Shown in pieces: positions 14,091 to 61,072 of a stretch of 64,000 nucleotides of DNA. The stretch covers positions 1,674,001 to 1,738,000 of the forward strand of contig JACCLO010000006.1 of assembly GCA_029448655.1 (NCBI GenBank), in the 5' to 3' direction. The notes beneath the pieces were generated by a model. That model saw only the letters and a list, made by a program, of their open reading frames with translations, was not told the DNA's origin and ran no database searches. The DNA comes from Wolfiporia cocos. Lineage: Eukaryota; Basidiomycota; Agaricomycetes; Polyporales; Phaeolaceae. How positions within the stretch are numbered: position 1 is the first letter of the stretch; each line of letters starts with the position of its first letter. Made by a program: the position numbers and the translations under genes.

Positions 14091-15929
14091 ATGTTTTCCC
14101 CTGTCAACCCTGGCTACGAATCTCAGACCTTCCTACCTGTGTGTTCAGACGCGATGATCTGCTACGCTGGATTTGATTCTTCTGTCGCAGCTCCTTCTGT
14201 TCCTGTACTGGCCCCGATCCCTCAAAGGCACATCGAGCCGTCTATGCTCCCTTCACCTCTCACACCGAAGGCATATTCTGCGCAGCTACACGCCGACCAT
14301 ATATACCATCTTTGTGGCCAGCAGGATATGCGAACTCTCAACGAACAAGATCCATCTCGTCAGGGATCGCTGCTTGATTCTGGTGCCGCCGTCAGTGGCC
14401 CATGCAACCCCTTCGGAGTTGGCACCTCCGAGTACTCTGAAATACCCATTGAATCAATCATCAATGAAGAGATGGTCAGCAGTTCCATTGAAAGCGTTGG
14501 TCGCTCATACCTGACATAGTCATATTGGTCTCAGATGATTGAAGAGGACGACAACTGCGAGCTGGCATTCAACTCACAGAATATCTATCAGAACGTTTCA
14601 AATGAGCTATCTATGCAATACGAGAGGCATCTACAAGATTACCAGCGTGACGCAGGGAAATTGCCAATTGATCAAAATTATGCTAACAATCATTCTGGCT
14701 CGGATAATTCTACCTTAGATCAAATCCATGACGTGCCAATGAATTGTATTGCGCCATGGCTGCTCAACCTCAAGGAGGCCACAAATGCGTATCAGGTTGA
14801 CACCGATCACGCGAAATTCAACCGGGTGCTTGAAACCATTGTCGCAGGCAAGTTCCCTAAAGATGGGCTCTCGGACAACGCCTCGGACAATGCCTATTCC
14901 CAATACTTCCCGACCTCAGCAGGAGCATCGCAGTTTACTGGCCCGTCAGATGGATACGAATTAGCCCTGAGCCCTGCATGTACTGTGGGCGATGTCCAAT
15001 GGCCGGAGAAAAAGCTAACGATCAAGGTGCCTCCATACCTGCAACAAGGGGGAGTGTCGCCATCTGGGCGTGGACGCGGACGAGGACGAGGACGCGGACG
15101 TGGGCGTGGAAACGGAAGTGGTCGTGGCCGAAAGCGCCAACAGTCACCGCCGCCACCCACGACTGTACGCGCGCGGGACCACGGTCTCATCAAGTTGCCG
15201 CAGTCTGTGGGGGCGCGGGGGCGCGGGCGCGTACGCTTCAAGTTACCACCGCATTCTAGGGGTGCGCGCGGGAGTGGCCGCCCTCGCAATCAGTCACCGC
15301 CGCCGCCTGAGACTGGGCGCAGGCGTGGCGGACCACGCTCACGAGGACGTGGTGGCGCGGCGGGACCTACGCCGCAGAGCGTGCGACGGAGTCACAGGCC
15401 CGCCTCGACATCGGAGAACAGTGCGAATCATGCCAGTGCCAATCCTATTTCGGGCCCTTCGTGCGCAGTGCAGCCGATAGCTGCGGAGTGCCAGCAAGTT
15501 GATGACAAATGCTTCGGTACAACTAATGATATGGATCTGGACATGAAGGCTACAGACACGAACATAGAGTCTGGCTCGTACGCAAAGGACCACAACTTAG
15601 ACGAGAACATGGAGCCCAGCCTGGATACGAAGGAGGGGCCTGACTCCGACACGAGGAAGGAAACCGACTGGGAAACGGATACCGAGCCGGAAAGTGACTT
15701 TGCGTGCGGGCTCCCTCATTTTCCTTTGAGACACGCACTCACATGTTTTTTCAGCTATTACTACAATTATATCGAGCCGGAAAGTGACTTTGCGTGCGGG
15801 CTCCCTCATTTTCCTTTGAGACACGCACTCACATGTTTTTTCAGCTATTACTACAATTGGGCGAGAGAGCACGCCAGACCTGATACTCTCCATGAGTTAA
15901 GATCGTACCCGAGTCTAAGTAAGATATGA
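14091..15929 (+). CDS. RGG/GAR-repeat hypothetical protein
   Basis: I do not recognise the family. Exon 1 is 14091-14474. A 60-nt intron at 14475-14534 (gtcagc...ctgacat...ctcag) joins in phase 0 to a long exon. The N-terminal half is acidic and Ser/Asn-rich. Bases 15066-15138 encode a run of alternating Gly-Arg followed by further RG/RGRG blocks and SPPPP motifs, which is typical of RNA-binding and nucleolar RGG regions and of arginine methylation sites. The C-terminus is Asp/Glu-rich. Bases 15683-15858 are a tandem duplication that includes a probable 51-nt intron in each copy. The 3' end is uncertain: the frame stops at 15927-15929, but a GTAAG at 15918 could lead into a further exon starting near 15948. 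Start at MFSPVNPG is a judgement. Confidence 0.55.
15683..15858 (+). repeat. 86-bp direct tandem duplication with an intron in each copy
   Basis: Bases 15683-15768 and 15773-15858 are identical (86/86) with a 4-bp spacer, so the period is 90 bp or 30 codons. Each copy contains a good 51-nt intron (15704-15754 and 15794-15844; GTGCGG ... poly-T then CAG). Because 51 is divisible by three and the intron has no stop, the protein frame survives whether or not it is spliced. Confidence 0.85.
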
Positions 15930-24956: not shown

Positions 24957-25240
24957 CTAGCTTAATTACTTGTGGCTTCGCCACAATTTTGTATTTCTAG
25001 GAGTTATTATATATCTCTGCCCGCTCAGCCACTCCTCCACCTCGCTGACGCTCGGCCTCGTCGTCGCTTCGCTTGTAATACCTTTGCAACCGGCACGCGC
25101 GCCTTGCAGGCGCCGGCGCGCACTCGACGGGCGCCCTACAGGCGCCGCCACGCGGCAAACGTGCTCGCCATGTGCGATTCTCGTGGGCGACACGCTAGCG
25201 ACACGCGACGGCTCCCACGCGAGCTCCCATTACTCTTAGA
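24957..25240 (-). mobile_element. Helitron-like element, short unit 1 (284 bp)
   Basis: Read on the minus strand it starts with TC (TCTAAGAGTAATGGGAGCTC) and ends with a hairpin (7-bp stem, GAA loop; + strand 24970-24986), a 9-nt spacer and CTAG. The next base on that strand is T. This is the Helitron 3' layout. No protein is encoded, so it is non-autonomous. It differs from short unit 3 at only two positions of 284. Confidence 0.75.
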
Positions 25241-25405
25241 CTAGCTTAATTACCTGTGGCTTCGCCACAAATGTTATGTCTTAGGAATATATTTTAGTCT
25301 CTGCCTGCTCAGCCACTCCTCCACCTCGCTGATGCTCGGTATCGTTGTCGCTTTGCTTGTAGAATCTGTAACTGGCACGCATGCCTTGCAGGCCCTGGGT
25401 GTGGG

Positions 25406-25780
25406 AATTCACCCCTGTGGCATTGGGGTGCAAATACCTGTGGCACAGGGTACAGACCCCTGTGGTGTGGAGTATTTATATTACAAAATCCCCATGCCAC
25501 AGGACGCAAATCCCTGTGGCATGGGGCACGAATCCCCGTGGCATGGGGCACAAACCCCCATGGCATGGGCCAAAAATCCCCGTGGTGTAGGGCACGAATC
25601 CCCGTGGCACGGGGTACAAATCCCCGTGGTGTGGGGTATTTACATTACAAAATCCCCATGCCACAGGACACAAATCCCTGTGGCATGGGCCACAAACCCC
25701 CATGGAATCGGCCACGAATCCCCGTGGTGTGGGGCACGAATCCCCGTGGCATGGGGCACGAATCCCTGTGGTGCGGGGCA
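25406..25780. repeat. 22-bp hairpin minisatellite, first array
   Basis: Degenerate tandem copies of AATCCCCGTGGCATGGGGCA plus two bases. Each unit contains CCCC...GGGG arms around GTGGCAT or ATGGTGT and so can fold back on itself. The array is interrupted twice by an AT-rich spacer (TATTTAYATTACAAAA). Confidence 0.85.
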
Positions 25781-25881
25781 GGAACAGCGCGCGCACCTTG
25801 CAGGCGCCGGGCGTGGGAATCCATCGGCCAACTCCGCGGACGGCAGGCGCCCTATCTAATGGGAGGAGGATCAACGACGCG

Positions 25882-25914
25882 CATGGACGCCACGCGGCAA
25901 ACGTGGCGTCCATG
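25882..25914. repeat. 13-bp perfect inverted repeat, 7-nt loop
   Basis: CATGGACGCCACG (25882-25894) and its reverse complement (25902-25914) flank CGGCAAA. The same palindrome is at 27340-27372 in the second long unit. The short units retain only a decayed version. Confidence 0.85.
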
Positions 25915-25995
25915 TGCGCAAAACGCGAGCGACACGCGAGCGACACGCTAGCGGCACGCGAGCGCCTACGGCGCGAGCTCCCCTTACTTTATGGA

Positions 25996-26279
25996 CTAGC
26001 TTAATTACTTGTGGCTTCGCCACAATTTTGTATTTCTAGGAGTTATCATATATCTCTGCCCGCTCAGCCACTCCTCCACCTCGCTGACGCTCGGCCTCGT
26101 CGTCGCTTCGCTTGTAATACCTTTGCAACCGGCACGCGCGCCTTGCAGGCGCCGGCGCGCACTCGACGGGCGCCCTACAGGCGCCGCCACGCGGCAAACG
26201 TGCTCGCCATGTGCGATTCTCGTGCGCGACACGCTAGCGACACGCGACGGCTCCCACGCGAGCTCCCATTACTCTTAGA
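25996..26279 (-). mobile_element. Helitron-like element, short unit 3 (284 bp)
   Basis: It has the same length as unit 1 and is nearly identical to it (two substitutions, near 26047 and 26225). The same TC 5' end, hairpin and CTAG 3' end are present. It abuts units 2 and 4 directly. Confidence 0.75.
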
Positions 26280-26608
26280 CTAGGTTAATTACCCGTGGCT
26301 TCGCCACGGTCACACTGCTTTTTCCACTTCAATATATTATTCCAATCCATGTGTCCCTATTTCAGATGATCAGGGGTTTTTTTAAGTTACCTGTGGATCC
26401 CCCATGAATTTCCTGTGCATTACCCATGGCTTCCCCAACTTCCCTCTTTTGTCTCTTGTCTCTGCCTGCTCAGCCACTTCTGACACCTCGCTGATCCTCG
26501 GTCTCATCGTCGCTTCGCTTGTAATACTGTGTAATGTGGTGTCAAAATGTTCTTCATTTTTTGCAATCTTTTGGCAGGCATCTACAGCACAGGCCATTTA
26601 TGTTACAA

Positions 26609-27231
26609 AAATCCCCGTGGCAGGGCACAAATCCCCATAGCATGGGACACAAACCCCCATGGTGCAGGGTACAAATCCCCGTGGTGCAGGATATTTACAT
26701 TACAAAAATCCCTGTGGCATGGGGCACAAATCCCCATGGTGTGCAGTACAAATCCCTGTGGCATGCAGTACAAATCCCCGTGGTGTGGGGTACTTACATT
26801 ACAAAAATCCCCGTGGCACAGGGCACAAATCCCTGTGGCACAGAGCACAATTCCCCGTGGCATGGGGTGCAAATCCCCATGGTGTGGGGTACAAATCCCT
26901 GTGGCATGGGGCACAAATCCCCGTGGTGTGGGGTATTTACATTACAAAAATCCCCATGATGTGGGGCACAAATCCCCATGGCACGGGGCACAAATCCCTG
27001 TGGCATGGGCCACAAACCCCCATGGCAAGGGCCACAAATCCCCGTGGTGTGGGGCACGAATCCCCGTGGTGTGGGGCACGAATCCCCGTGGCATGGGGCA
27101 CGAATCCCCGTGGCATGGGGCACGAATCCCCGTGGCATGGGGCATGAATCCCCGTGGCATGGGGCACGAATCCCCGTGGCATGGGGCACGAATCCCCGTG
27201 GCATGGGGCACGAATCCCCGTGGTGCGGGGC
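26609..27231. repeat. 22-bp hairpin minisatellite, second array
   Basis: Roughly 28 copies of the same 22-bp unit as the first array. The right part (27040-27231) is homogeneous, with CACGAATCCCCGTGGCATGGGG repeated almost perfectly apart from a few substitutions; the left part is degenerate and broken by TTTACATTACAAAAA spacers. Confidence 0.88.
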
Positions 27232-27339
27232 AGGAACAGCGCGCGCGCCTTGCAGGCGCCGGGCGTGGGAATCCACCGGCCAACTCCGCGGATGGCAGGC
27301 GCCCTATCTAATGGGAGCAGGAGGAGGATCAACGACGTG

Positions 27340-27372
27340 CATGGACGCCACGCGGCAAACGTGGCGTCCATG
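27340..27372. repeat. 13-bp perfect inverted repeat, 7-nt loop (second copy)
   Basis: Same palindrome and loop as at 25882-25914, inside long unit 4. Confidence 0.85.
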
Positions 27373-27496
27373 TGCGCAAAACGTGCGCTGAACGTGCGCA
27401 AAACGCGAGCGACACGCGAGCGACACGCTAGCTGCACGCTAGCTGCACGCTAGCGACACGCAAGCGCCTACGGCGCGAGCTCCCATTACTTATAGA

Positions 27497-31200: not shown

Positions 31201-33455
31201 CTAAACCTGAGTTCAGGTTCGACCCTTCTGATGAGGCTCGCCTCGCAGAGTTCAGGAACAAGATATGGTACGTCTTGATCTAATGACGTTATTTCTCTTG
31301 CAATTGAGCATGACTTTCCAAAGGCCGACCATCGAGAGAATGAATGCGTATGCTCCGCAGCACTCCAGGTTGTTTAAGGAGGTATGTACCAACACTAAGA
31401 GTGCACATAAGTATGCGATGTAATTTACTCTTCGCAGATGATCATTGTTTCGAAGCCGTCGAAGCCGTTCACGTACACCGCCAAGGGGACTGTCCGCCGT
31501 GGCGCTGTGACAAGCGAGTACGAGGACGAGGTAAACCAGTTGTACGAGACTGTAAAATCGAGCGCGCAGTCTAGCGTTCCTCCACCATCGAAATGGGACA
31601 TTGCCAGCACTACCGGTTACATTAGGGACATCATCCACAAAGCGCTCATGCGCCCCGTCACGGATGACGACGATCTCTTCCAGCACGGATGCGATAGGTA
31701 CGGCGAATAATGCTATGCGCTACATCCTACTTACAACTCGTGTCCCCACGCAGTCTGCAAGCGACTAACATCCGCAATACTGTACTGCATGCATTGAGAG
31801 AATCGTCATTCACCGACACCCGTAAGATTGTCGGTAACTTCGTTTACGATCATCCTACCATCTCCAAGCTTGGTGCATATGTCGCATCCCTGGCGGCAGG
31901 CCAGCACACGGAGAGCGGCTCAGCGATCAACGTTACGGAACGTGTCGCGGCCATGCATGCTATGGTGGAGAAGTACACGAAGGATTTCCCTGTTCGACTC
32001 TCTGATGATAGTACTGTCTCCGTGGCGTCGGACGGTGATGTGGTCCTGCTCACGGGCTCAACTGGTGGCTTGGGCTGCCACTTACTTGCGCAGCTGGTCT
32101 CGAGTCCCGAAATTGCGCGCATATATGCGTTGAACCGGCCATCAAGGGGGCGCCTGTTGTCTGACAGACAGCGGTCTGCGTTGGTCGAGCGTGGGCTCGA
32201 CGCGGAACTCGTTGATTCCGAGAAGGTCGTATTGCTGGAAGGCGAGCTCACCAAGTCGAGCTGGGGATTGCCGGAGGATACCTACGACGAGGTTTGCTAT
32301 CCTTGCTCTAGGCATATCAGGATGCTGACCCATGGCCTCACAGATTCACCGCTCTGTGACCCATATCATTCATAATGGTACGATCATCAATATGTGTTCT
32401 CGCAAGCTCATTCTGAGTCTAATCCAGCCTGGCGCGTCGACTTCGTGATCAATCTATCGTCCTTCGAGGATAGCGTGCACGGTCTACGCAAATTGATCGA
32501 CTTCGCACTCACTTCGCCGCTGAAGATCGCTCCTCGTGTTGCATTCACAAGCTCAATCGGTATCTATCAGAGTAAGCATCCCGCCCATAGTCACTTACTG
32601 ATCGTACTCATAAAGTTATACAGACTCTCCATGCGATATCGTCTTCTCAGAGGCCCCAGTTAGCCCTGAGCTGCCGGTCGGCACTGGATATGCCGAGTCA
32701 AAGTGGGTTTCCGAGCAAATCCTTTACGATACTGCGGCCAGAACTCCGCTCAAGGCGCTCGTTATCCGAGTTGGCCAGATCTGTGGCGGTCTTGACGGGG
32801 CGTGGAACGCACACGAGTGGCTCCCCACCCTCGTCCAAAGCGCGCCAAAGCTTGGCTGTTTCCCAGATGACTCTAAGGTGTGCCTCGCTGTACGTTATTT
32901 GAATAAAAAGCTGACCATACACGGCCCCTGCAGAGCGTCGATTGGGTCCCAATCGAGATTGCTGCTAGCGCCGTCATCGATTTCCGCAAGGTGTCGGGAA
33001 TCGTACATCTCGTGCACCCGCGTCCGACGGCATGGCACACGCTCGCGCGCGCGATCGCCGACATATTCACCGTTACACTCGTACCCTATGAGCAGTGGCT
33101 TGCCGCCCTCGAGCGCGCAGCTGCAGCTACCGACCCGAGTGCGGCGCAAGACGGGAAGGGGAACGCGACCCTACGCGCGCTGAGTCTGCTGGACTTCTTT
33201 CGTGGGGTGGGCGCGAAGCTCGAAACGGGACGTCGTGCGATGGGCTTACCGGAGCTCGAGGTCACGCACGCAGTGCAGGTGTCGCCTACATTAGCGGATC
33301 CCGCTCTCCGACGGCTGTGCGAGGAGGACGTGACAAGGTGGATTGCGTACTGGGAGAGAGTGAGGCTTTTTGCTTGCTGGGAAGGCGTAAAGAGGATACA
33401 TGGCCTTGTATCTACAAGATACTACTCTATGAAACAGAGAGTGGTTGGCTCCTGA
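28257..33455 (+). pseudogene. A-T-R adenylate-forming reductase (NRPS-like), copy 1, broken by an LTR-type insertion
   Basis: The layout is the same as copy 2: adenylation domain (HSSGSTAFPKP, YGSTECAV, GRADDQIMHSTGEK), carrier domain (DDDLFQHGCDSLQA) and a C-terminal NAD(P)-dependent reductase (VLLTGSTGGLG, GYAESKW). All introns up to and after the insertion keep frame. A 921-bp element (30261-31181) interrupts the exon within FGRGQFQAG and brings a stop after about 46 codons. The 5-bp duplication GCTGG borders it, and the exon reads through correctly on either side. No other disabling change was seen, so loss of function looks recent. The C-terminus is extended by about 20 residues beyond the paralogue end (GVKRIHGLVSTRYYSMKQ). 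The carrier Ser codon is split by an intron. Confidence 0.85.
30261..31181 (-). mobile_element. Miniature LTR-type (TRIM-like) element with identical 254-bp terminal repeats
   Basis: 30261-30514 and 30928-31181 are identical direct repeats around a 413-bp interior. The element is flanked by GCTGG (30256-30260 and 31182-31186), a 5-bp target duplication. On the minus strand each repeat starts TGTCAC and ends GTGATA, and a purine-rich GTGGGGGTAA precedes the 3' repeat, as expected of a polypurine tract. Just inside the 5' repeat lies CGGTTCGAACC, a tRNA T-loop/B-box-like sequence. No protein is encoded. Zero differences between repeats indicate a recent insertion. Confidence 0.78.
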
Positions 33456-44540: not shown

Positions 44541-47500
44541 ATGTCCGCTCGACGAATCCTTCCGCCCCCGCCACAGACGCACGCTCGCACGAGCGGCACC
44601 TTCCGTGCGCCCCCGCTCGACGGATCGCTGACGTTCCCCGAGATATGCGACTGGCACGAGAAGAACTCGCCAGAGCACCGTATGTTCGTCTACGCAGGCA
44701 ATGACGGCCAGGTCAGGTCGATCAGCTGGCGCGAGTCAGCAAGGGCGATCCGCGTGGCCGCCAAGCTGGTCCGCGATCGCATGGGATGGCAGCCCGGGAT
44801 GGCAGCCACGCCCGTGGTCGGCATCATAGCACAGTCCGGTGAGGAGCTGGAGTGTAGCTCTGCAGCAGCGTGGCTGACTGGTCGCGTGTGCAGATGCGAT
44901 TCCGTACGCCACACTTGTTTTTGGCGTCATGCGCGCGAATTACGCCGCTTTCCCCATCTCCGTCCGCAATTCGCCTGCTGCAGTCGCCCATCTAATCAAG
45001 CAAGTTGGCGTGCAGCACATTATACTGGGTGGTGGTAAGGGCACGCAAGATCTCTTTAATGCCGCCCTGGAGATTCTCAAGACACAGCACCCTACGGATG
45101 CCATACCTGCGGTGTCTCCAATGCCTGTTTTTGAGGACTTGTATCTTTCTGGGTCGAGCAGCGTCTCAGCCGAGGATCTTTTATTCGAATTCAAAGGCTC
45201 AGATGCTCCTGTTATGATTTCTCACTCGTCAGGTACGCACATTCAGCTTGCAAACCCGGGCGATCTAAGTAAATCTATCTCGCCTAGGCTCGACGGCATT
45301 CCCCAAGCCGATCTGGTTCACGCACCACCGCATTGTGCAAGTCCTGGTGACGCCTTGGTATGGCGAACGCGATCTCACCGGCTCAGTCTTCTCGGTGCAC
45401 ATGTCGCCAATGTACCACGCGATGGGCCTATTCAATGTACTGTGGACGGTGGGCAAGGCTGTGGCTACGTCTATCCGACAGGTATTGATGCGTAATCATC
45501 CACAGGCGAGCATGGGTACTACGTGTGGCCTCTTTGCACCCCAGTCGCCTCCGCCGGTCCCTACCCCTGATTCCGTCTTCGAAGCGGCAAAGACAACGGA
45601 TTGCAACACTCTAATAGTGATCCCTGCATTCCTCGAGGTAAATAAGAGTCCTTTCTATAGCTTTGTGGAAACTACCTACTAACATACGACGCTAGGTTTG
45701 GTCATATAACTCAGAATGTGTCAAGTGGCTCGCCACTCGTGATAGAGTGGTGCGTCGCTCCTGCGGAGATGGCGCGCTCATACTGAAGCTCTTGCTTAGG
45801 TATTTGGTGGAGGCCCATTGAATAAAGAGCGTGGAGATTATCTGGTCTCGCAAGGAGTACCGATATATGCCGGATATGGGACGTGCGTCCATCTTGACGA
45901 TATTCTACTCTGATCTGACATAGCCAATTGAAGTACCGAAACCGGAGGTCTGAGCATGTTCTTCCCAGGTAACTTTATCATCTTACTTAAGTCTAGTCGT
46001 TGAAAGATTTATCCATTTCAGCCGGTGGCAAGGTAGAATGGGAATATTTACGATTCACAGGTGGGGTTACAACAAAGTTGATACCATGGGACGACAACAC
46101 GTTCGAATTGGTTGTAGTGGTGAGCACACAGATTAAGCTGGTAATATTGTGTCCTGACTTTCTGTCGTTGCGTCCACCAGTCAAACGAAATCTACGAGCC
46201 GAATGTATGCAACGCGACCGTGGATGGCCGAAGTGCATATGCAACCTCGGATCTCCTTTCTCCGCATCCTACAGCCCCGGGATACTGGAAGATTGTGGGT
46301 CGGACAGATGACCAGATTATGCACAGTACGGGAGAAAAGGTGGGTTTGCTCTCATATCATAAGTTACGGAAGCGATGAACTTGTCTGCAGACGAATCCTG
46401 GCCCTTTGGGTACGCAGTTCATCGTAATATACTTCAGGGCAGCTGATTTATGATAATACAGAAAGCATGTTGAAGCAGGACCCGCATATCCAAGATTGCG
46501 TGATGTTCGGTCGCGGAAAATTCCAGCCTGGGATTCTCGTTGATCCGGTGCCCGAATTCCGCTTCGACCCCACAGATGAGGCAAGGTTGGCTGATTTCCG
46601 AAACAAGATATGGTATGAAAATACCTGATTTCGGCTTGCTGCCATGCTCATGGATTGCTAGGCCCACGGTCGAAAAGATGAATGCATATGCTCCACAGCA
46701 TTCAAGACTGTTCAAGGAGGTAATTCGCGACATATCAAAAACAAGTGTGATCAAGGATTGATGTCCCGATCAGATGATTCTAGTCTCGAGTCCCGCAAAG
46801 CCATTCCAGTTCACTGCCAAAGGCACTGTACGAAGAGCAGCGATGATCACAGAATATGAGGAAGAGATCGAGGCAGCATATGAACGAGTGGAGAAGAGCG
46901 AGCAGTCAGATATCCCACTGCCTTCTCAATGGGATGACAGCACCGCGATTGATTTCATTCGCGCGGTGATATCCAAGATCATGACCCGTGCAGTCGGAGA
47001 CGACGACGACATATTCCAACATGGATGCGACAGGTTCACATTTCCACCGGATGACTAACCGCAAGTGTGCTGATGTGTTATCGTAGCCTCCAGGCAACCT
47101 ACATCAGGAACACCGTCCTTCGAGCCTTGCGAGAATCGGCACAGATCGATACCCGGAAAGTAGAAACTACATTCGTCTACAGCAACCCTACGGTCTCAAG
47201 CCTGGCATATTTTGTAGCCAAGGTTGCGCGCGGAGAATCGTTAACGGAATCCTCCAACTTGAGTCAACGAATTTCGGCGATGCACAAGATGGTGGCGAAA
47301 TACAGCGACAATTTCCCTATTCACTGCGGTGATATCTCACCGACCGGTGGCGACATCGTCTTGCTCACAGGGTCTACTGGAGGTCTGGGATGTCATATCC
47401 TCGCTCAACTCGCAGACGACCCGAAAGTTGAGCGAGTATATGCGTTCAATAGACCTTCTCGAAGCGGTATTGCTGTTCGAGATCGACAGAGATCTGCGCT

Positions 47501-48723
47501 AATCCAACGCGGGCTGGAGGCGAGCATTGTGGACGGTGGCAAGATTGTGCTTGTAGAAGGCGATCTGACATCTTCCAACTTTGGAATGTCCAGCATTGCA
47601 TACGAAGAGGTACAGGCATTATTGCGAGCCCATATACATTGCTGATCGTGTTCCAGATGCAACGTTCAACTACTCACATCATACATAACGGTGCGTTCTC
47701 CTTCACGGTCACGACTGTCTCTGGCTAATATTTCCGTCACAGCTTGGCGAGTTGACTTCAACGTGTCCCTGAGCTCCTTCGAAGACAGCATCAAAGGGCT
47801 TCGTTGCCTAGTCGAGCTGTCTCTCTCTTCCCCTTTGAACATACCGCCTCGGATTGTCTTCACCAGCTCAATCGGCGTTCTGCAGGGTAAGCATAGCATT
47901 GTTTGAGGCACAATGAGTCGTGTTCTGATCATCTTGATGTTCTCAGGTGCGGCACCCAATGATCGGCTCAATGAGGTCCCCGTGCCTGCCGAATTTGCTG
48001 CAGGACTCGGCTACGCAGAATCTAAATGGGTATCTGAGCAGATCCTGTATCAAGCAGCAGCCAGGACGCCGCTAGACCCGATGGTTGTCCGTGTTGGTCA
48101 GCTATCCGGAGGGCCGGGAGGTGATTGGAACACACACGAGTGGTTCCCTTCGATGGTCCAGACTGCCCCGGTGCTACGCTGCTTCCCCGACGACGACAGA
48201 GTGAGTCAATTGTCAACCATCTTGGTTCACGGTCTGAGCTTTAATGACTGGGCAGGGAGTGGCGTGGATACCACTTGATCTCGCTGCCTCAGCAATTATC
48301 GACTTCTCGAGGGCGACGAATTCAACACACACAGTCCACCTCGTACATCCTCGTCCTGTATCATGGCACTCACTGGCGACAATTGTTGCTTCCGAGTTCG
48401 ACATCCCTCTTGTGCCCTACGCCGAATGGCTTGCAAATCTGGAACGCGTAGCTCAAGCTGGAGACGCTCTCGAGAATGGCACATCCCCTTCGCCTGCAAA
48501 AGCCATGCATGCTCTTCAACTTCTTCCGACATTCAGGGGACTCGGAGTGAAGACTGATGCAGAATCTTCCACGCTGGCACTTGGGATGGCAGATATGGAG
48601 GTCCAGAAAGCGGTCGAGGCGTCTTCTACCCTTGCCGATGTACATGTGCGACAGTTGGGACCGCAAGATGTTCATCAGTGGATCGCCTATTGGCGGAAGG
48701 CTGGGCTATTTAGCGGGCAGTAG
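44541..48723 (+). CDS. A-T-R adenylate-forming reductase (NRPS-like), copy 2, intact
   Basis: Eighteen exons sum to 3270 nt, or 1089 residues plus stop. Adenylation domain: SSGSTAFPKP near residue 212, YGTTETGG near 353, GRTDDQIMHSTGEK near 453. Carrier domain: DDDIFQHGCDSLQA, with the phosphopantetheine Ser at about 616 encoded by AG and C on either side of the intron 47034-47086. Reductase domain: VLLTGSTGGLG near 710 (NAD(P) loop) and YAESK near 872-876 (Tyr and Lys of an SDR fold), plus VRVGQLSGG. There is no condensation or thioesterase domain. In this family a carboxylic acid is adenylated, held on the carrier and released by reduction to an aldehyde or alcohol. The substrate cannot be read here. 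It is probably cytosolic. Copy 3 is a tandem duplicate of it. Confidence 0.9.
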
Positions 48724-51646: not shown

Positions 51647-54600
51647 ATGTCCGCTCGACGAATTCTTCCACCCCCGCCACAGACGCACGCTCGCACGAGC
51701 GGCACCTTCCGTGCGCCCCCGCTCGATGGCTCGCTGACGTTGCCAGAGATATGCGACTGGCACGAGAAGAACTCGCCAGAGCACCGCATGTTTCTCTATG
51801 CAGACAACGACGGCCAAGTCAAGTCGATTTGCTGGCGCGAGTCAGCAAGGGCGATCCGCGTGGCCGCCAAGTTAGTTCGAGATCGCATGGGATGGCAGCC
51901 TGGAGTAGCTGACACGCCTGTGGTCGGCATCATAGCACAATCTGGAAAGTATTTGGAGTGTAAATCTGCAATGGCATAGCTGACCCGTCTCACATGCAGA
52001 TGGAATTCTGTATGCCACACTCGTTTTGGGCATTATGCGCGCAAACTATGCTGCTTTCCCCATCTCCATCCGCAATTCGCCTGCTGCAGTTGCACATCTG
52101 ATCAAACAAGTTGGCGTGCGGCACGTTGTGCTGGGCCGCAACAAGGGCACGCAGGAGCTCTTTGATGCCACATTGGAGATTCTAAAGGCGCAACATCCTA
52201 CGGCTGATATACCCGTGGCGTCTCCAATGCCTGTTTTTGAGGACTTGTATCTTCCAGAGTCATTCAACATCCCCGCAGAAGATCTCTTATTTGAGTTCAA
52301 AGGCTCAGATGCTCCCGCGTGGATTTCTCACTCATCGGGTACACACATTTTGCTTCCGGACTCGGTCAGGCTGAGTAAATGTATCTCGCCTAGGCTCGAC
52401 GGCGTTCCCCAAGCCGATCTGGTTCACGCACCACCGCGTTTTGCAAGTCCTGGTGATGCCTTGGTACAGTGAACGTGATCTCACCGGCTCGATCTTTTCG
52501 GCACACATGTCGCCGATGTACCACGGGATGGGCCTACTCAATGTACTGTGGACGGTGAGCAATACTGTGGTTGCATACATTCGACCGGTATTTATGAATG
52601 ATCACTGGCAGGCAAGCATGGGTAATACGTGTGGTCTCTTCGCACCCCAGTCGCCTCCGCCGGCCCCTGACCCGGATTCCGTCTTCGAAGCGGCAAAGAC
52701 CACGGATTGTAGCATCCTGATGGGAATTCCTGCATTTCTAGAGGTCAATATAAGTCAATATTGCAGAGTTGGTAGGAATGGCCCACTAATATACGACGCT
52801 AGGTTTGGTCATATAAACCAGAATATGTCAAGTGGCTCGCTACTCGCGACGTAGTGGTGCGTCGCTTTTGCAGAGATGTTGCACTCACATTGAGGCTCCT
52901 AATTAGGCATTTGGTGGAGGCCCGTTGAATAAAGAGCGAGGAGATTACCTGGTCTCGCAGGGCGTGCCGATATATGTCAGTTACGGAATGTGCGCCCATC
53001 CAGACGATCTATTGGTCTGATCTAACATAATCAACTGAAGTACCGAAACCGGAAGACTGAATATGTTCTTCCCAGGTAACTTTTATCCTAATACTCAGGT
53101 CTAGTAGTGTAAAGATTTATCTATCTCAGCCGGTGGCAAGGTAGAATGGGAATATTTCCAACTCAGAAGTGAGATTACGACGAAGTTAATACCATGGGAC
53201 GACAACACATTTGAGTTGGTTGTGGTGGTAAGCACATAGATCAAGCTGATAAAGTCGTGTCCTGACATTCGGCCGTTGCATCCATCAGTCAAATGAAATC
53301 TACGAGCCGAATGTGTGCAACACAACTGTGGATGGTCGAAGTGCATATGCAACCTCGGATCTCCTTTCTCCGCATCCTACAGTTCCAGGCTACTGGAAGA
53401 TTGTGGGTCGGACAGATGACCAGATTATGCACAGCACGGGAGAAAAGGTGGGTTTGCTCTCATGTTGTTAATGAGAGCAGCGATGAACCTGCATGCAGAC
53501 GAATCCTGGTCCTTTGGGTGCGCAGTCATCATAGCATACTCCAGGATGACTGCTTTATAATTACACAGAAAGCATTTTGAAGCAGGACCCGCATATCCAA
53601 GATTGCGTGATGTTCGGTCGCGGAAAATTCCAGCCTGGAATTCTCGTTGATCCGGTGCCCGAATACCGCTTCGATACCACGGATGAGGCAAGGTTGGCTG
53701 AGTTCAGGAACAAGATATGGTATGAAAATACCTGATTTCGGCTTGCTGCCATGCTCATGGATTGCTAGGCCCACGGTCGAGAAAATGAATGCATATGCTC
53801 CACAGCATTCAAGACTGTTCAAGGAGGTGATTCGCGACATTTAGAAACAAGTGTGATCAAGGATTGATGTCCCGATCAGATGATTCTAGTCTCGAGTCCC
53901 GCAAAGCCATTCCAGTTCACTGCCAAAGGCACTGTACGAAGAGCAGCGATGATCAAAGAATATGAGGAAGAGATCGAGGCAGCATATGAACGAGTGGAGA
54001 AGAGCGAGCAGTCAGATATCCCACTGCCTTCTCAATGGGACGACAGCAGCGCAATTGACTTCATTCGCGCGGTGATATCCAAGATCATGGCCCGTGCAGT
54101 CGGAGACGACGACGACATATTCCAACATGGATGCGACAGGTTCACATTTTTACAGGATGACCAAGCGCAAATGTGCTGATGTGTTATCGTAGCCTCCAGG
54201 CAACCTACATCAGGAACACCATCTTTCGAGCCTTACGAGAGTCAACACGGATCGATACCCGGAAAGTAGAAACTACATTCGTCTACAGCAACCCTACGGT
54301 CTCAAGCCTGGCATATTTTGTAGCCAAGGTTGTGCGCGGAGAATCGGTGACGGAATCTTCCAACTTGAGTCAACGAATTTCGGCGATGCACAAGATGGTG
54401 GCGAAATACAGCGACAATTTCTCTGTTCATCGTGGTGGTATCTCACCGACCGGTGGCGACATCGTCTTGCTCACAGGGTCTACTGGAGGTCTTGGTTGTC
54501 ACATCCTCGCTCAACTCGCAGACAATCCGAGAGTTGAGAGAGTATACGCGTTCAATAGACCTTCTCGAAGCGGTATTGCTGTTCGAGATCGACAGAGATC

Positions 54601-55827
54601 TGCGCTAATCCAACGCGGGCTGGAGGCGAGCATTGTGGACGGTGGCAAGATTGTGCTTGTAGAAGGCGATCTGACATCTTCCAACTTTGGAATGTCCAGC
54701 ATTGCATACGAAGAGGTACAGGCATTATTGCGAGCCCATATACATTGCTGATCGTGTTCCAGATGCAACGTTCAACTACTCACATCATACATAACGGTGC
54801 GTTCTTTTTCACGATCACGACTATCTTTGGCTGATATTTCCGTCACAGCTTGGAGAGTTGATTTCAACGTGTCTTTGAGCTCCTTCGAAGACAGCATCAA
54901 AGGGCTGCGTCGCCTAATCGAGCTGACTCTCGCTTCCCCTTTGAATATACCGCCTCGGATTGTCTTCACCAGCTCAATCGGCGTTCTTCGGGGTAAGTGC
55001 GACAATATTTGAGGCACAAGGAGCCGTGTTCTGATCATCTTGATGTTCTCAGGTGCGGCACCCAATGATCGGCTCAATGAGGTTCCCGTGCCTGCCGAAT
55101 TTGCTGCAGGACTCGGCTACGCAGAATCTAAATGGGTATCTGAGCAGATCCTGTACCAAGCAGCAGCCAGGACGCCGCTAGACCCGATGGTTGTCCGTGT
55201 TGGTCAGTTAGCTGGAGGACCAAGAGGTGATTGGAACACGCATGAGTGGTTCCCTTCGATGGTCCAGACTGCTCCAGTGCTACGCTGCTTCCCCGACGAT
55301 GACAGAGTGAGTCTTGTTAATCAATACAAATTACAGTCTAAGCTGAAATGGCTCGTTAGGGAGTGACGTGGATACCACTTGATCTCGCTGCCTCAGCGAT
55401 TATCGACTTCTCGAGGGCGACGAATTCAACACACACAGTCCACCTTGCACATCCTCGTCCTGTATCATGGCACTCACTGGCGACAATTGTTGCTTCCGAG
55501 TTCGACATCCCTCTTGTGCCCTACGCCGAATGGCTTACAAATCTAGAACGCGTAGCTCAAGCTGGAGACGTTCTCGAGAATGGCACGACCCCTTCACCTG
55601 CAAAAGCTATGCATGCTCTTCAACTTCTTCCAACGTACAGGGGACTCGGAGTGAAGACTAATGCAGAATCTTCCACGCTGGCATTTGGGATGGCAGATAT
55701 GGAGGTCCAGAAAGCGGTCGAGGCGTCTTCTACCCTTGCCGATGTACATGTGCGACAGTTGGGACCGCAAGATGTTCATCAGTGGATTGCATATTGGCGG
55801 AAGGCTGGGCTATTTAGCGGGCACTAG
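51647..55827 (+). pseudogene. A-T-R adenylate-forming reductase, copy 3, with a broken first splice donor
   Basis: It is collinear with copy 2 (offset about 7.1 kb) and very similar throughout, with the same intron positions. All catalytic motifs are kept (adenylation SSG + STAFPK, YGITETGR, GRTDDQIMHSTGEK; carrier HGCDSLQA; reductase TGSTGGLG and YAESK). The single lesion seen is at intron 1 (51945-51999): the donor reads GA (TCTG|GAAAGT) where copy 1 and copy 2 have GT and copy 4 has GC. The acceptor is intact and would continue in frame (DGILYATLVLGIMR). Retention of the intron gives a stop about 12 codons later. It is called a pseudogene with caution, since GA-AG splicing is rare but cannot be excluded without RNA. 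Confidence 0.8.
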
Positions 55828-56908: not shown

Positions 56909-59900
56909 ATGGCTGAACGGCGCACCTTTCCTGCCCCACCCCGAGTACACGGATTATCGAGCACAACCTTCACTGCTCCCACTATTGATGGCTCGTCGAC
57001 TATCCCTGAAATCTGCGATTGGATTGCGGAACACTCACCGCATCATCGCGCGTACACCTATGTCGATGATAATGGCCAGATTAAATCCATCAGCCGGCTC
57101 GAGGCAGGACACGCTATTCATGTGGCCGCAAGAATCGTTCGAGACCGGGTAGGATGGTCCCCTGGAACGGCCTCTACGCCGGTGATCGCCATCTTAGCAC
57201 AATCTGGCAAGTATCCGTACCCTAGGACTGACATATCTGGGCCTGTTCTTACTTCCGCCTGCCAGATGCTATCCCATATTCCGCCACCGTTTTGGGAATT
57301 ATGCGGGCAAATTTTGCCGCATTCGCTATTTCCACTCGTAATTCGGCTGCAGCAGTAGCTCATCTTTTGAATCAAGTCGGGGCGCAGCACATACTCATTG
57401 GCAGAGAACAAAGCACTCAGGATCTCATGAGAAATGCATTAGATATCTTGAGAGGCCAATACCCGTCTGCAACCGCTCCGACACCGTCTTTGATGCCCGT
57501 CTTCGAGGAGCTGTATACAACAAACTCTGAGAGTAACTTTGCAACGGACGACTTGTCGTTCGAATTTAAAGGTCCAGATATGCCGGCGTTAATCCTGCAT
57601 TCCTCGGGTGAGTTGGGCGTACAGTAGTTTGTTTGCAGCGATCTCATACTGAGCGCGCAGGCTCCACTGCGTTCCCAAAGCCAATCATGCTGACTCATCA
57701 TCTTCTGGTCCTATACTCTTTAACTGTTTGTTACAGTGAACGCGATATGACAGACGTGGTCATCTCTATGCACTTATCGCCAATGTTCCATGCCATGGGC
57801 ATTTTTAACCTGATATGGGCCGTGCGTACCCGAATTCAGTAAGGTGTTTGGTCATAATATTGATGAGATTCGGCGACGGATTACAGGCTATTTCAGGCGC
57901 GGTGTGCGGCTTTCTGGCGCCCAGTTCTCCGCCGCCTATCCCTACCCCGGAGCTGGTGTATAATGCGGCAAAAACTCTGCAATGCGAAATTCTGATTGCT
58001 GTCCCATCGTTGTTGGAGGTATGCAGGCCGTCATGACTAGCATGGACGTCTGCTCATTAGACGTTCAGGACTGGTCGCGAAACGAAGACTGTGTGAAATG
58101 GCTCTCTACGAGGCCTCTTGTGGTAGGTGCCGATAGTCACCTTGACATGATCAGCCTCTACATATTGCTTCAGACGACAGGCGGAGGTCCTTTAGATCAG
58201 GAAAGGGGCGACTACCTTGCCTCTCAAGGCGTTCGCATTTGGAATGCCTATGGGATGTAAGCGCATCACATAGCATTAATATCGCAATCGCTCAATTGGG
58301 CCCCACAGTACTGAAGTAGGGGCAGTCAGCACTTTCTTCCCTGGTGAGTTTGTGCCTGCATTGGTGGCACGTTGACACGAACATGCATCCCAATAGCCAC
58401 ATTTCTCCCCGAGTGGGAGTACTTTAGGATCACGAAAAACGTCACCGTGAAAATGGTTCCGAATGATGGAGGTACATATGAAATAGTAATACTAGTAAGT
58501 CGAGGATTGTGTACATATTCATGCATTTAGCTAATCTCTGTATTTCAGTCGAGTAAAATCAATCAGCCAAGCGTGATCAACACGACTGTTGACGGAGTGC
58601 CCGCATATGCAACGTCAGATTTGGTCGTTCCTCATCCCCAGGTAGCTGGTTATTGGAAGATTATTGGTCGCACCGACGACCAGATCATGCACAGTACGGG
58701 AGAGAAAGTGAGAAGTTGTTTACCTGTTGATAATTGCTTATCCATTTGAGATCAGACAAATCCGGGACCGTTAGGTTTGGATGACAGTCACTGGTAGCCT
58801 ATAGGTTTACTCATCACACTGCAGAAAGCATCTTGCGGCAGGATATGCACGTGCGAGCGTGCGTGATGTTTGGCCGCGGGCGTTTCCAAGCGGGAATCCT
58901 GGTCGATCCTAAACCTGAGTACCGCTTCGATGTCTCCCATGAGACTGCATTAGCAGATTTCAGGAACACGATCTGGTGCGCATTGTGCACACATCACAAT
59001 GAATCACATACTGAGCCTGATCAAGGCCAACTATCGAAAAGGTGAACGAATATGCACCACAGCATTCAAGAATTTTCAAAGAGGTATTCCCGAAAATGAA
59101 ACTAATGCCATGAACTTATGAATTTGAGGCATAGCTGATTCTTGTATCAATTCCTTCAAAACCTTTTCAATTTACTGCCAAAGGCACCGCTCGCCGTGGT
59201 GCCATGCTCAAAGAATATGGGCCAGAGATTGCCGCCGCTTATGAGAAGAAGGAACAGAGCGAACAATTGGACATTCTACCGCCTTATTCATGGGATCAAG
59301 ATGCCATGGCTCAATTTATCCGTTCCGCAGTCCAGAATGTTATCAAATACTCTCTCCTTGACGACGACGACATATTCCAACATGGCTGCGATAGGTGGAT
59401 CACTCGTTTTTCATGCTTGTAAAACGCTTATATGGCTGATAGCCTGCAGGCCACATACATCCGGAACACCATTCTCCGAGCATTGCGTGACTCCGCACAC
59501 ATCGATACTCGCCAGATCGATGTCAATTTCGTTTACGCTTACCCAACCATTACACGGCTTGTATCGTTCGCAGTCAAAGCCCTTAAAGGAGACTCACCAG
59601 ACAATCCTATGGCCACGAGGGTAGATGAAATGCATAAGATGGTCGCCAAGTACAGCGAAGGGTTCCCTGTTCATCGAGGCAATATCGCACCGGTCGGTGG
59701 AGACGTCGTGTTGCTCACAGGCTCTACTGGAAGCCTTGGTTGTTACCTTTTGGCGCTTCTTGCATCTGATCCAGGAATATCACGCGTGTACGCCCTCAAT
59801 CGACCTAGCAGGAATGGCGTAGCCCTTCGGGAACGGCAGAGAGCGGCGCTAACCGAGCGTGAACTGGATGCGGGCATCGTGGAGACTGGCAAGACTGTGC

Positions 59901-61072
59901 TCCTTGAAGGAGATCTGACGTTGCCCAATCTGGGAGTGCCCCAGACGACCTACGAAGAGGTGAATATATGCGGCCATACGATGTACATTACTGACAGTTG
60001 GTGGAAGATACGCCTCTCGGTCACTCATATCATCCATAACGGTGGGCCTTATCTGTTCTGTTTCCACTGATCATGAGTTTAGAGTCAAATGTGATGACAG
60101 CTTGGCGAGTAGATTTCAATGTATCCCTAACCTCCTTTGAGGATAATATTCAAGGCCTGCGCCATTTGATTGACTTGTCCCTCGCATCTCCAATGATCAT
60201 ACCGCCACGAATCATTTTCACGAGCTCTGTCGGCGTCTTTCAGAGTCAGCGGTGGCCCCTTCTGCAGTTTGTTGTGCAGTACTCACCTTATACGATCACA
60301 GATGCACAATTGGGCGATGAGCTGATCGAAGCGCCCATCAAAGCAGAGTTTGCCGCTGGTACAGGCTACGCTGAGTCCAAGTGGATTTCGGAGCAAGTCT
60401 TGTACGAAGCCGCCGCCAAGACGCCACTCGATCCACTGATAGTCCGTGTCGGCCAGCTTTCTGGGGCCCCAGATGGAATATGGAATGCACATGAATGGTA
60501 TCCTGCAATGGTGCAAAGCGCCCCGGTGTTGCGCTGCTTCCCTGATGACGATAGGGTGAGCAGCTAAGATCAATATTGCAGAGGCAGCGTTTTGATCAAA
60601 TTATGCATAGGGAGTATCATGGATCCCACTTGACCTGGCTGCAGCTGCGCTTGTCGACTTTCGCAGGGCGTCGAATCCTGCGCATACTGTGCACCTTGTG
60701 CACCCGCGGCCGGTTTCATGGCATTCAATCGCGACCCAAGTCGTGTCAGAGTTCTCCGTCCCACTAGTACCCTATACTTATTGGCTCGAGCAACTTGAGG
60801 CCACAGCGAGGAGCTCGAATCACCCTGACAGCGACAATGCCGACGCCCTGGAGACTCTCCACGCTTCGCGACTACTCCGGCTGTTCAGAAGCTTTGCGAA
60901 GGAAGTGGGCACCTATTCTGAGAGATTTGCAATGGGGATGCCGAATATAAAGTCTACACGGGCTATCCATGCGTCCAACACCTTAGCGGACCCCCACCTT
61001 CGCCAGGTGAGTTCAATGGATGTGAGGAGGTGGATAACGTACTGGCGCAAAGTGGGATTACTAGGGAGATAG
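56909..61072 (+). CDS. A-T-R adenylate-forming reductase, copy 4
   Basis: It has the same domain order and intron positions as copy 2 but is clearly more divergent. Adenylation: SSGSTAFPKP, YGITEVGA, GRTDDQIMHSTGEK. Carrier: DDDDIFQHGCDSLQA, again with the Ser codon split by an intron (59394-59442). Reductase: VLLTGSTGSLG and GYAESKW, ending RWITYWRKVGLLGR. Every junction keeps frame. Intron 1 (57207-57265) must be a GC-AG intron (TCTG|GCAAGT ... GCCAG), the known minor class; the GTATCC four bases further breaks the frame. In the reductase, the intron before ATACGCCTCTCGGTC uses the distal AG. The gene looks functional. The ATG at 56909 (MAERRTFPAPP) was chosen by alignment with the paralogues. 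Confidence 0.85.

Follow-up and report, generated by a model that had tools for sequence, protein, structure and literature searches.

A four-unit array in the window

The window analysed here is a 64,000-nucleotide stretch of the Wolfiporia cocos genome (contig C56, positions 1674001-1738000, in a 64.4-Mb assembly of 76 contigs), and this report concerns four Helitron-like units that lie head to tail on its minus strand at window positions 24957-27496. The coordinates, ends, junctions and flanks of the array are base-exact. In element orientation, from 5' to 3', and with a slash marking a join or an insertion point here and throughout, its features are:

27497, minus strand: host A ahead of the TC tip of the array (docking site A/TC)
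26280..27496, minus strand: unit 1, the 5'-most, 1217 bp, with tip TCTATAAGTAATGGGAG and 3' end GTGGCGAAGCCACGGGTAATTAACCTAG, preceded by the host A
25996..26279, minus strand: unit 2, short type, 284 bp, with tip TCTAAGAGTAATGGGAG, directly after the CTAG of unit 1
25241..25995, minus strand: unit 3, 755 bp, with tip TCCATAAAGTAAGGGGAG and a 22-bp minisatellite, directly after the CTAG of unit 2
24957..25240, minus strand: unit 4, the 3'-most, short type, 284 bp, directly after the CTAG of unit 3 and followed by the host T
24957..24984, minus strand: 3' terminus of the array, with hairpin core GTGGCGAAGCCAC, a spacer and CTAG
24956, minus strand: host T behind the CTAG of the array

All four units start with TC and end with CTAG, and the three inner junctions read CTAG/TC. 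ACCA lies just before the array's outer 5' end and TGCT just after its outer 3' end. The 3' ends of units 1 and 4, the two that were folded, form a 7-bp stem with a 3-nt loop, followed by 9 nt and the CTAG. A first-pass annotation of the sequence had described the same four units (TC start, hairpin, 9 nt and CTAG, an outer A and T, CTAG/TC junctions) correctly to the base. Its order of short-long-short-long is that of the plus strand; read in the direction of the elements, the order is long-short-long-short.

The units were compared with a sample of 166 units, obtained from 184 3' ends in array blocks of several contigs after 18 without an assignable start were dropped. This sample is non-random, with 30 loci found through similarity to the short unit, 12 through a Rep-domain search and the rest chosen from listed places. 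The two short units of the window differ from one another at 2 of 284 positions (282/284 identical), as the annotation had claimed, and for each of them a better match than the partner lies in another array. Unit 4 has an identical copy (284/284) at C56:391751, and the closest sampled relative of unit 2, at C3:2169197, matches it at 283/284 positions. Neither of the long units, 1 and 3, is a copy of the other: their identity is 81% across 70% of the longer one and 84% across 82% of the shorter one. Their closest sampled relatives are found at C56:389400 for unit 1 (92.3%) and at C2:704371 for unit 3 (98.9%). Both contain a 22-bp minisatellite with a consensus near CACGAATCCCCGTGGCATGGGG, at window positions 25411-25784 and 26603-27225, with at most about 12 copies per stretch.

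Helitron identity and autonomous-type relatives

Searched across the genome with up to 3 mismatches, the 3'-end pattern gave 791 occurrences compared with 0 for the reversed control, and is therefore not a product of chance. The strict form ending in CTAG occurs 499 times, again with 0 for the reversed-pattern controls, and 494 of the 499 are followed by T. At the other end, 30 of the 32 exact tips that lack a preceding CTAG have an A before them in 326 kb of sequence that includes the window. Of the characteristics of canonical Helitrons (Helitron1), the following are present: TC and CTRR ends, a 3' hairpin, insertion at A/T without a target-site duplication, and an autonomous-type Rep-helicase element with the same ends. 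The ends, the T that follows 494 of them and the empty site of a sister array, described below, bear out the annotation's claim of Helitrons with an A/T target. A Helentron or Helitron2 identity, for which PMC5148889 gives either TT as the target or the position between TTTT and a following T or C, was considered and rejected, as the target here is A/T.

A profile search for Helitron_like_N returned 34 matches in the genome, 14 of them in open frames of more than 1000 aa without a stop in the match. The Rep-helicase element with the same ends, which the annotation had proposed as something to look for, was found in two units, each with an intact open reading frame (ORF):

C1:1745248-1752067: autonomous-type unit of 6820 bp, inside an array, with the same ends and an intact 1757-aa ORF
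C4:1462949-1456130: autonomous-type unit of 6820 bp, inside an array, with the same ends and an intact 1757-aa ORF

The 1757-aa protein carries the domains PF14214 (Helitron_like_N), PF05970 (PIF1 helicase) and PF21530 (Pif1 2B). The copy from C1 aligned with the solved Helraiser transposase (PDB 7lcc) over 1465 residues with E=4e-251, and the nearest named relative of the Rep-helicase is from Grifola frondosa (65%). Judged by these matches, the window units are non-autonomous Helitrons whose autonomous-type relatives with the same ends encode an intact, predicted transposase.

A further Rep domain, in a 1675-aa open frame, lies in a 6266-bp unit that ends in CTCG (C1:1765213-1771478) and forms the 3' end of a giant array. 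This unit diverges by ~15% from its closest full-length counterpart among the sampled units and may represent an older autonomous family that occupies the founder position.

Head-to-tail junctions across the genome

Direct contact between units is common in this genome: 357 of the 499 strict 3' ends (72%) adjoin the 5' tip of another unit. The 326 kb contained 137 head-to-tail junctions and 0 head-to-head, and for the TCTAWRAG tip class no head-to-head junction was found anywhere in the genome with up to 2 mismatches allowed. In one tip class, A precedes 45 tips and another base precedes 116; the 60 of these 116 that were printed comprise 59 G and 1 T. Since the 166 units hold 9,497 A/T dinucleotides, exact tips are targeted far more than their number predicts, a comparison of counts and not a formal fold value. 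The frequency of the junctions suggests a strong preference for resident tips.

The annotation had argued that the inner junctions lack an A and that the units were therefore not inserted independently. This does not follow. A new copy that integrates in the same orientation between the host A and the T of a resident's TC would obey the A/T rule, and would yield A/new...CTAG/TC resident with no A between the two units. The CTAG/TC junction is thus no proof of joint insertion. Further, as A/TC is recreated at the new outer tip, the docking site would renew itself with each arrival. We consider it very probable that the four window units are canonical non-autonomous Helitrons that arrived in succession, each at the 5' tip of the array.

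Insertion into a resident tip can be read directly at C23:4466408-4469233, where six units lie inside a tip split at its internal A/T (TCTA/TAAGTAATGGGGG). CCATCTA stands before the six units and TAAGTAATGGGGG after them; because both halves of the tip remain, the resident predates the six inserted units. This is one of five half-tip cases seen. Short repeats of the 5' tip itself, such as TCTATAAGTAA/TCTATAAGTAATGGG, were also observed (C56:392034-392046, C23:4501433 and C4:1453559); they look as if a same-type copy had entered the next A/T inside the tip and one copy had then been lost.

Neighbouring units in the sampled arrays

For all but 6 of the 166 units, another array held a relative at 80% coverage. 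Like neighbours, defined by at least 97% identity and at least 80% mutual coverage, made up 5 of 130 adjacent pairs, where shuffling gave a mean of 6.6. When related upstream units in different arrays were followed across intact junctions, 9 of 467 comparisons showed related downstream neighbours, against a shuffled mean of 22. The sampled arrays are therefore neither runs from a single template nor transmitted orders.

These counts bear on the annotation's proposal of a rolling-circle concatemer, in which replication passes the 3' hairpin and the resulting dimer or tetramer inserts once. The exact CTAG/TC junctions and the outer A/T are compatible with such an event, and the five like pairs could be its products. 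A concatemer implies neighbours copied from one template, and this is not what the arrays contain: units within one array are of different types with nearer relatives elsewhere, as with the long and short units of the window, and there is neither an excess of like neighbours nor a co-inherited order at intact junctions. As the main process in the sampled arrays, concatemer insertion is contradicted.

Two recombination routes, the homologous integration of a circle and unequal crossing-over within a tandem satellite, would likewise expand a tandem with exact junctions, and adjacent short-short pairs (such as C1:1421865/1422149) could have arisen in this manner. Recombination predicts like neighbours, however, and 125 of the 130 pairs are unlike at the 97% threshold. 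It also cannot bring a new type to the tip and leaves an A/T empty site unexplained, and we regard it as highly improbable as the origin of the arrays.

A fused pair with a damaged terminator

One junction behaves differently. The sequence GTAATTAANCTA/TCTGAACTATAATGGGAG (CTA/TCTGAAC, in which the G of CTAG is lost) occurs at 14 places, for example C45:2145413, C3:2237169 and C2:702744, and in the five arrays where it was read the upstream partner is always of the TCCATAATATAATGGG type, 744-809 bp in length. This recurrence makes it likely that the pair is mobile as one; after damage to the terminator it was probably copied and moved as a single element. Intact junctions show no such linkage between neighbours, and at damaged junctions the neighbour was conserved in 1 of 3 comparisons, too few to decide the matter.

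The fused pair lends some support to two alternatives. As a broken-terminator composite that probably moves as one, it can be counted in favour of a concatemer. Its 14 occurrences with a constant upstream partner would also be expected if whole arrays were mobile as composite Helitrons that reach from the outermost 5' tip to the final 3' end and read through the internal terminators. Movement of this kind should keep neighbours together, and across intact junctions they are not kept between the sampled arrays; we give whole-array movement hardly any weight. The pair offers a natural test of the role of the final G of CTAG in termination.

An empty site and a duplicated locus

The joined flanks of the window array match only their own locus in the assembly, where neither an empty site nor a second allele was found. 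More could be learned from three other arrays, P1 (C56:211653 down to 194636), P2 (C56:389400-395252) and P3 (C34:234961 to 260408). The tails of P1 and P3, the first tip of P3 and the empty copy described here stand outside the 166-unit counts and inside the 326-kb junction and tip counts. When the flanks of P2 were joined without the array, 8 of the 40 matches listed extended at least 40 bases beyond the join. The best match among those listed, C10:474732-475153 (89%), is the only copy read at base level; this array-less paralog reads GCACGTA/TATATATG unbroken. As the C10 copy joins exactly at A/T, the array was inserted at A/T without a target duplication.

P1 and P3 carry arrays at the same A/T as the empty copy. 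Over 321 aligned bases their 5' flanks share 99.07% identity, and on this sequence evidence they are one duplicated host locus; the 5' flanks of P2 and of the empty copy are 83-88% like those of P1 and P3. In both P1 and P3 the last two units are a TCTATAAGTAAC unit and, after it, a TCTAAGTAC unit of 271 bp that abuts TATATATG. The two 271-bp units have 3 differences and are mutual best matches in the sample when gaps count, and the aligned parts of the TCTATAAGTAAC units differ by ~1%, as the flanks do. Upstream of this pair the arrays diverge: P1 continues with a unit of the 284-bp type, P3 with a TCCATAAAG unit of 772 bp. This 772-bp unit does not correspond to the TCCATAAAG unit of P1, to which it is 95.5% identical over half its length; it has full-length relatives elsewhere at 97%. 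The 5'-most tips of the two arrays also differ. The simplest account would be that the locus was duplicated while it held two units and that both copies then grew 5'-ward.

A shared 3' end with different 5' parts, where these were read, speaks against insertion of the P1 and P3 arrays in one event. With the closer relatives of the window's short units elsewhere and with neighbours that are unlike and not co-inherited, it leaves the annotation's tetramer, made by failed termination and inserted once, very unlikely.

The same locus pair bears on whether only the outermost tip is used. Docking might occur at any TC tip, with insertions also at internal G/TC junctions, which equal the end-to-end junction of a Helitron circle. 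The Helraiser transposase precisely cuts a single-stranded oligonucleotide of the circle junction (PMC5876387, in the part available), and the arrays other than the giant one show no age gradient (see below), both of which fit such docking. In P1 and P3, none of the five and at least seven later events, respectively, fell between the two shared units; the count for P3 was pieced together, with the fused pair taken to end as its relatives do. Equal use of tips would give this outcome with a chance of ~1/6 x 1/8, roughly 2%, for what is one locus pair only. We consider docking at any tip possible but doubtful.

The junction between the last two units of P1 is split by an unrelated insert of ~10 kb (C56 ~204915 to 194916). 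The insert was read at its two ends, which are GACACAG and CTGTGAC, and is flanked by TAACCT on either side.

Direction and age of array growth

If arrays grow at the 5' tip, the oldest unit should lie at the 3' end. In the giant array C1:1736482-1771478, which has about 25 units, divergence increases toward the 3' end (p=0.001, 23 units scored). The gradient for 27 arrays together (p=0.0005) is due to this array alone, and the age gradient was dropped as a general proof of 5' growth. The 3'-most units fall into two tip classes and their variants in 16 of 20 cases, compared with 9 of 146 units elsewhere (Fisher p=1e-12), the two classes having been defined after inspection of the data.

Several observations weigh against growth by successive insertion at the 5' tip. 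In the other 26 arrays no age gradient was found, with 11 positive trends, 14 negative ones and 1 that was flat (p=0.54), and a second age measure based on cluster consensus shows none whether the giant array is included or not. The missing gradient either counts against a strict, simple 5' order or reflects low power in young arrays; power is low since the sample leans to young arrays, with 30 loci chosen by near-identity to the short unit, and insertions at internal junctions would blur any gradient too. The class bias at 3' ends need not be a matter of age, since terminator strength or target habit could also produce it. Only the C23 locus of the five half-tip cases has both halves, the other four giving no resolution, and no intermediate state of the window array was found. 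P1 and P3 are a single locus pair, with the interior of P3 mostly unread, and differential loss from a longer shared array may account for the difference; P3 has a short-type unit (97%) further upstream at C34:256325. The TCTATAAGTAAC unit of P1 is nearer to a copy at an unrelated locus (99.3%, on C3) than to that of P3 (~98.5%), and some 287-bp copies elsewhere differ, gap aside, by one substitution from the 271-bp unit of P3. Because closer copies sit at unrelated loci, unit similarity alone is no proof of shared descent. Finally, P2 has an array at the identical A/T with a 5' flank only 84% like that of P1, an unexplained occupied copy. Its 3'-most unit is of the TCTATAAGTAAC type without the 271-bp unit, and its array may have come from a separate insertion at a hot spot or through gene conversion.

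Set against these points, successive insertion at resident 5' tips accounts for the window array as follows. The Rep nuclease, which would cut the TC tip to start transposition, may also offer resident tips as targets, and the incoming CTAG end would be joined to the resident TC. The window array would have been built in four such events, and some insertions at internal G/TC junctions may have occurred. The chemistry is plausible because Helraiser joins its own ends and cuts the junction precisely, according to the portion of PMC5876387 available. The stronger proposal is that of self-docking, in which the transposase treats the resident 5' tip as a preferred, oriented and self-renewing target, the majority of insertions fall precisely at the A/TC of another copy, and each array is a record of time with its oldest unit at the 3' end. 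We judge the case for this proposal to be evenly balanced.

Other features of the window

Four open frames with an NAD_binding_4 reductase domain lie within ~28 kb of the window (31710-32372, 47067-47642, 54173-54748 and 59432-60067). Those at 47067 and 54173 are very similar by eye, and the four are perhaps a recently expanded gene cluster. A 90-bp unit is present in two copies with 98% identity inside an open frame at window positions 15679-15858. The nearest named relatives of one gene in the window include Coprinopsis and Mycena; together with the Grifola match of the Rep-helicase they suggest an agaricomycete host.

Comparison with known Helitrons

The comparisons in this section draw on the available portions of the papers cited. 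Tandem or adjacent Helitrons have been reported in bat, maize, rice, Drosophila, plant centromeres and some ascomycetes (PMC2267711, PMC5876387, PMC5148889). The closest parallel is the maize r1 region, where two adjacent head-to-tail Helitrons were read by the authors in 2008 as consecutive insertions (PMC2267711). Similar to the arrays described here, the two maize units are unlike each other and meet at a CTAG/TC junction without an A, and the paper names the canonical route, in which the host A and the first base (T) of the resident together form the target. Unlike the present case, with hundreds of junctions and evidence on direction, maize offers one pair for which the order of arrival was left undecided and one of the two routes needs a GT target. 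The same paper reports that Pritham and Feschotte read the bat tandems as rolling-circle products through the missing-A argument.

The tandems of Myotis lucifugus (as given in PMC2267711) and those of plants and centromeres (as given in PMC5876387 and PMC5148889) are likewise head-to-tail or tandem. They have been read as rolling-circle or circle-derived, in contrast to the arrays here, in which types are mixed and not co-inherited. Self-insertion near or into 5' termini, with duplicated 5' termini, is described for FoHeli of Fusarium oxysporum and for a triple in Metarhizium acridum (PMC5148889), for which the authors left open the choice between insertion and rolling circle. These cases differ from ours in their Helitron2-like ends and target and in being few (PMC5148889).

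Among fungal elements with a similar target, HELPO1 and HELPO2 of Pleurotus ostreatus have an AT target, T[C/G] and CTRR ends (CTTG in HELPO2), a hairpin and a Rep-helicase (PMC4289320); the words tandem and head-to-tail are absent from the main text of that paper. Helraiser has a similar Rep-helicase (PDB 7lcc) and joins 3' to 5' ends precisely, and a preference for resident tips is not described in the available text (PMC5876387). The Xuan-Feng Helitrons of wheat are active, and their 49 and 86 new insertions strongly favour AT, with no resident-tip preference mentioned in the part of the paper available (PMC13286980). In the open-access literature, as far as its texts were available, no report was found of genome-wide mixed rows of Helitrons or of their direction of growth.

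Implications

The earlier dispute over tandem Helitrons turned, as far as the literature available to us goes, on few cases and on the missing-A argument. The CTAG/TC junction should not be read as proof of a concatemer. Concatemer insertion and stepwise insertion predict different neighbours, a different inheritance of order and a different side of growth, and hundreds of junctions in one genome fit stepwise insertion better. If self-docking is true, non-autonomous, autonomous and decayed families would share one docking ladder, and the Helitron copies would shelter the rest of the genome.

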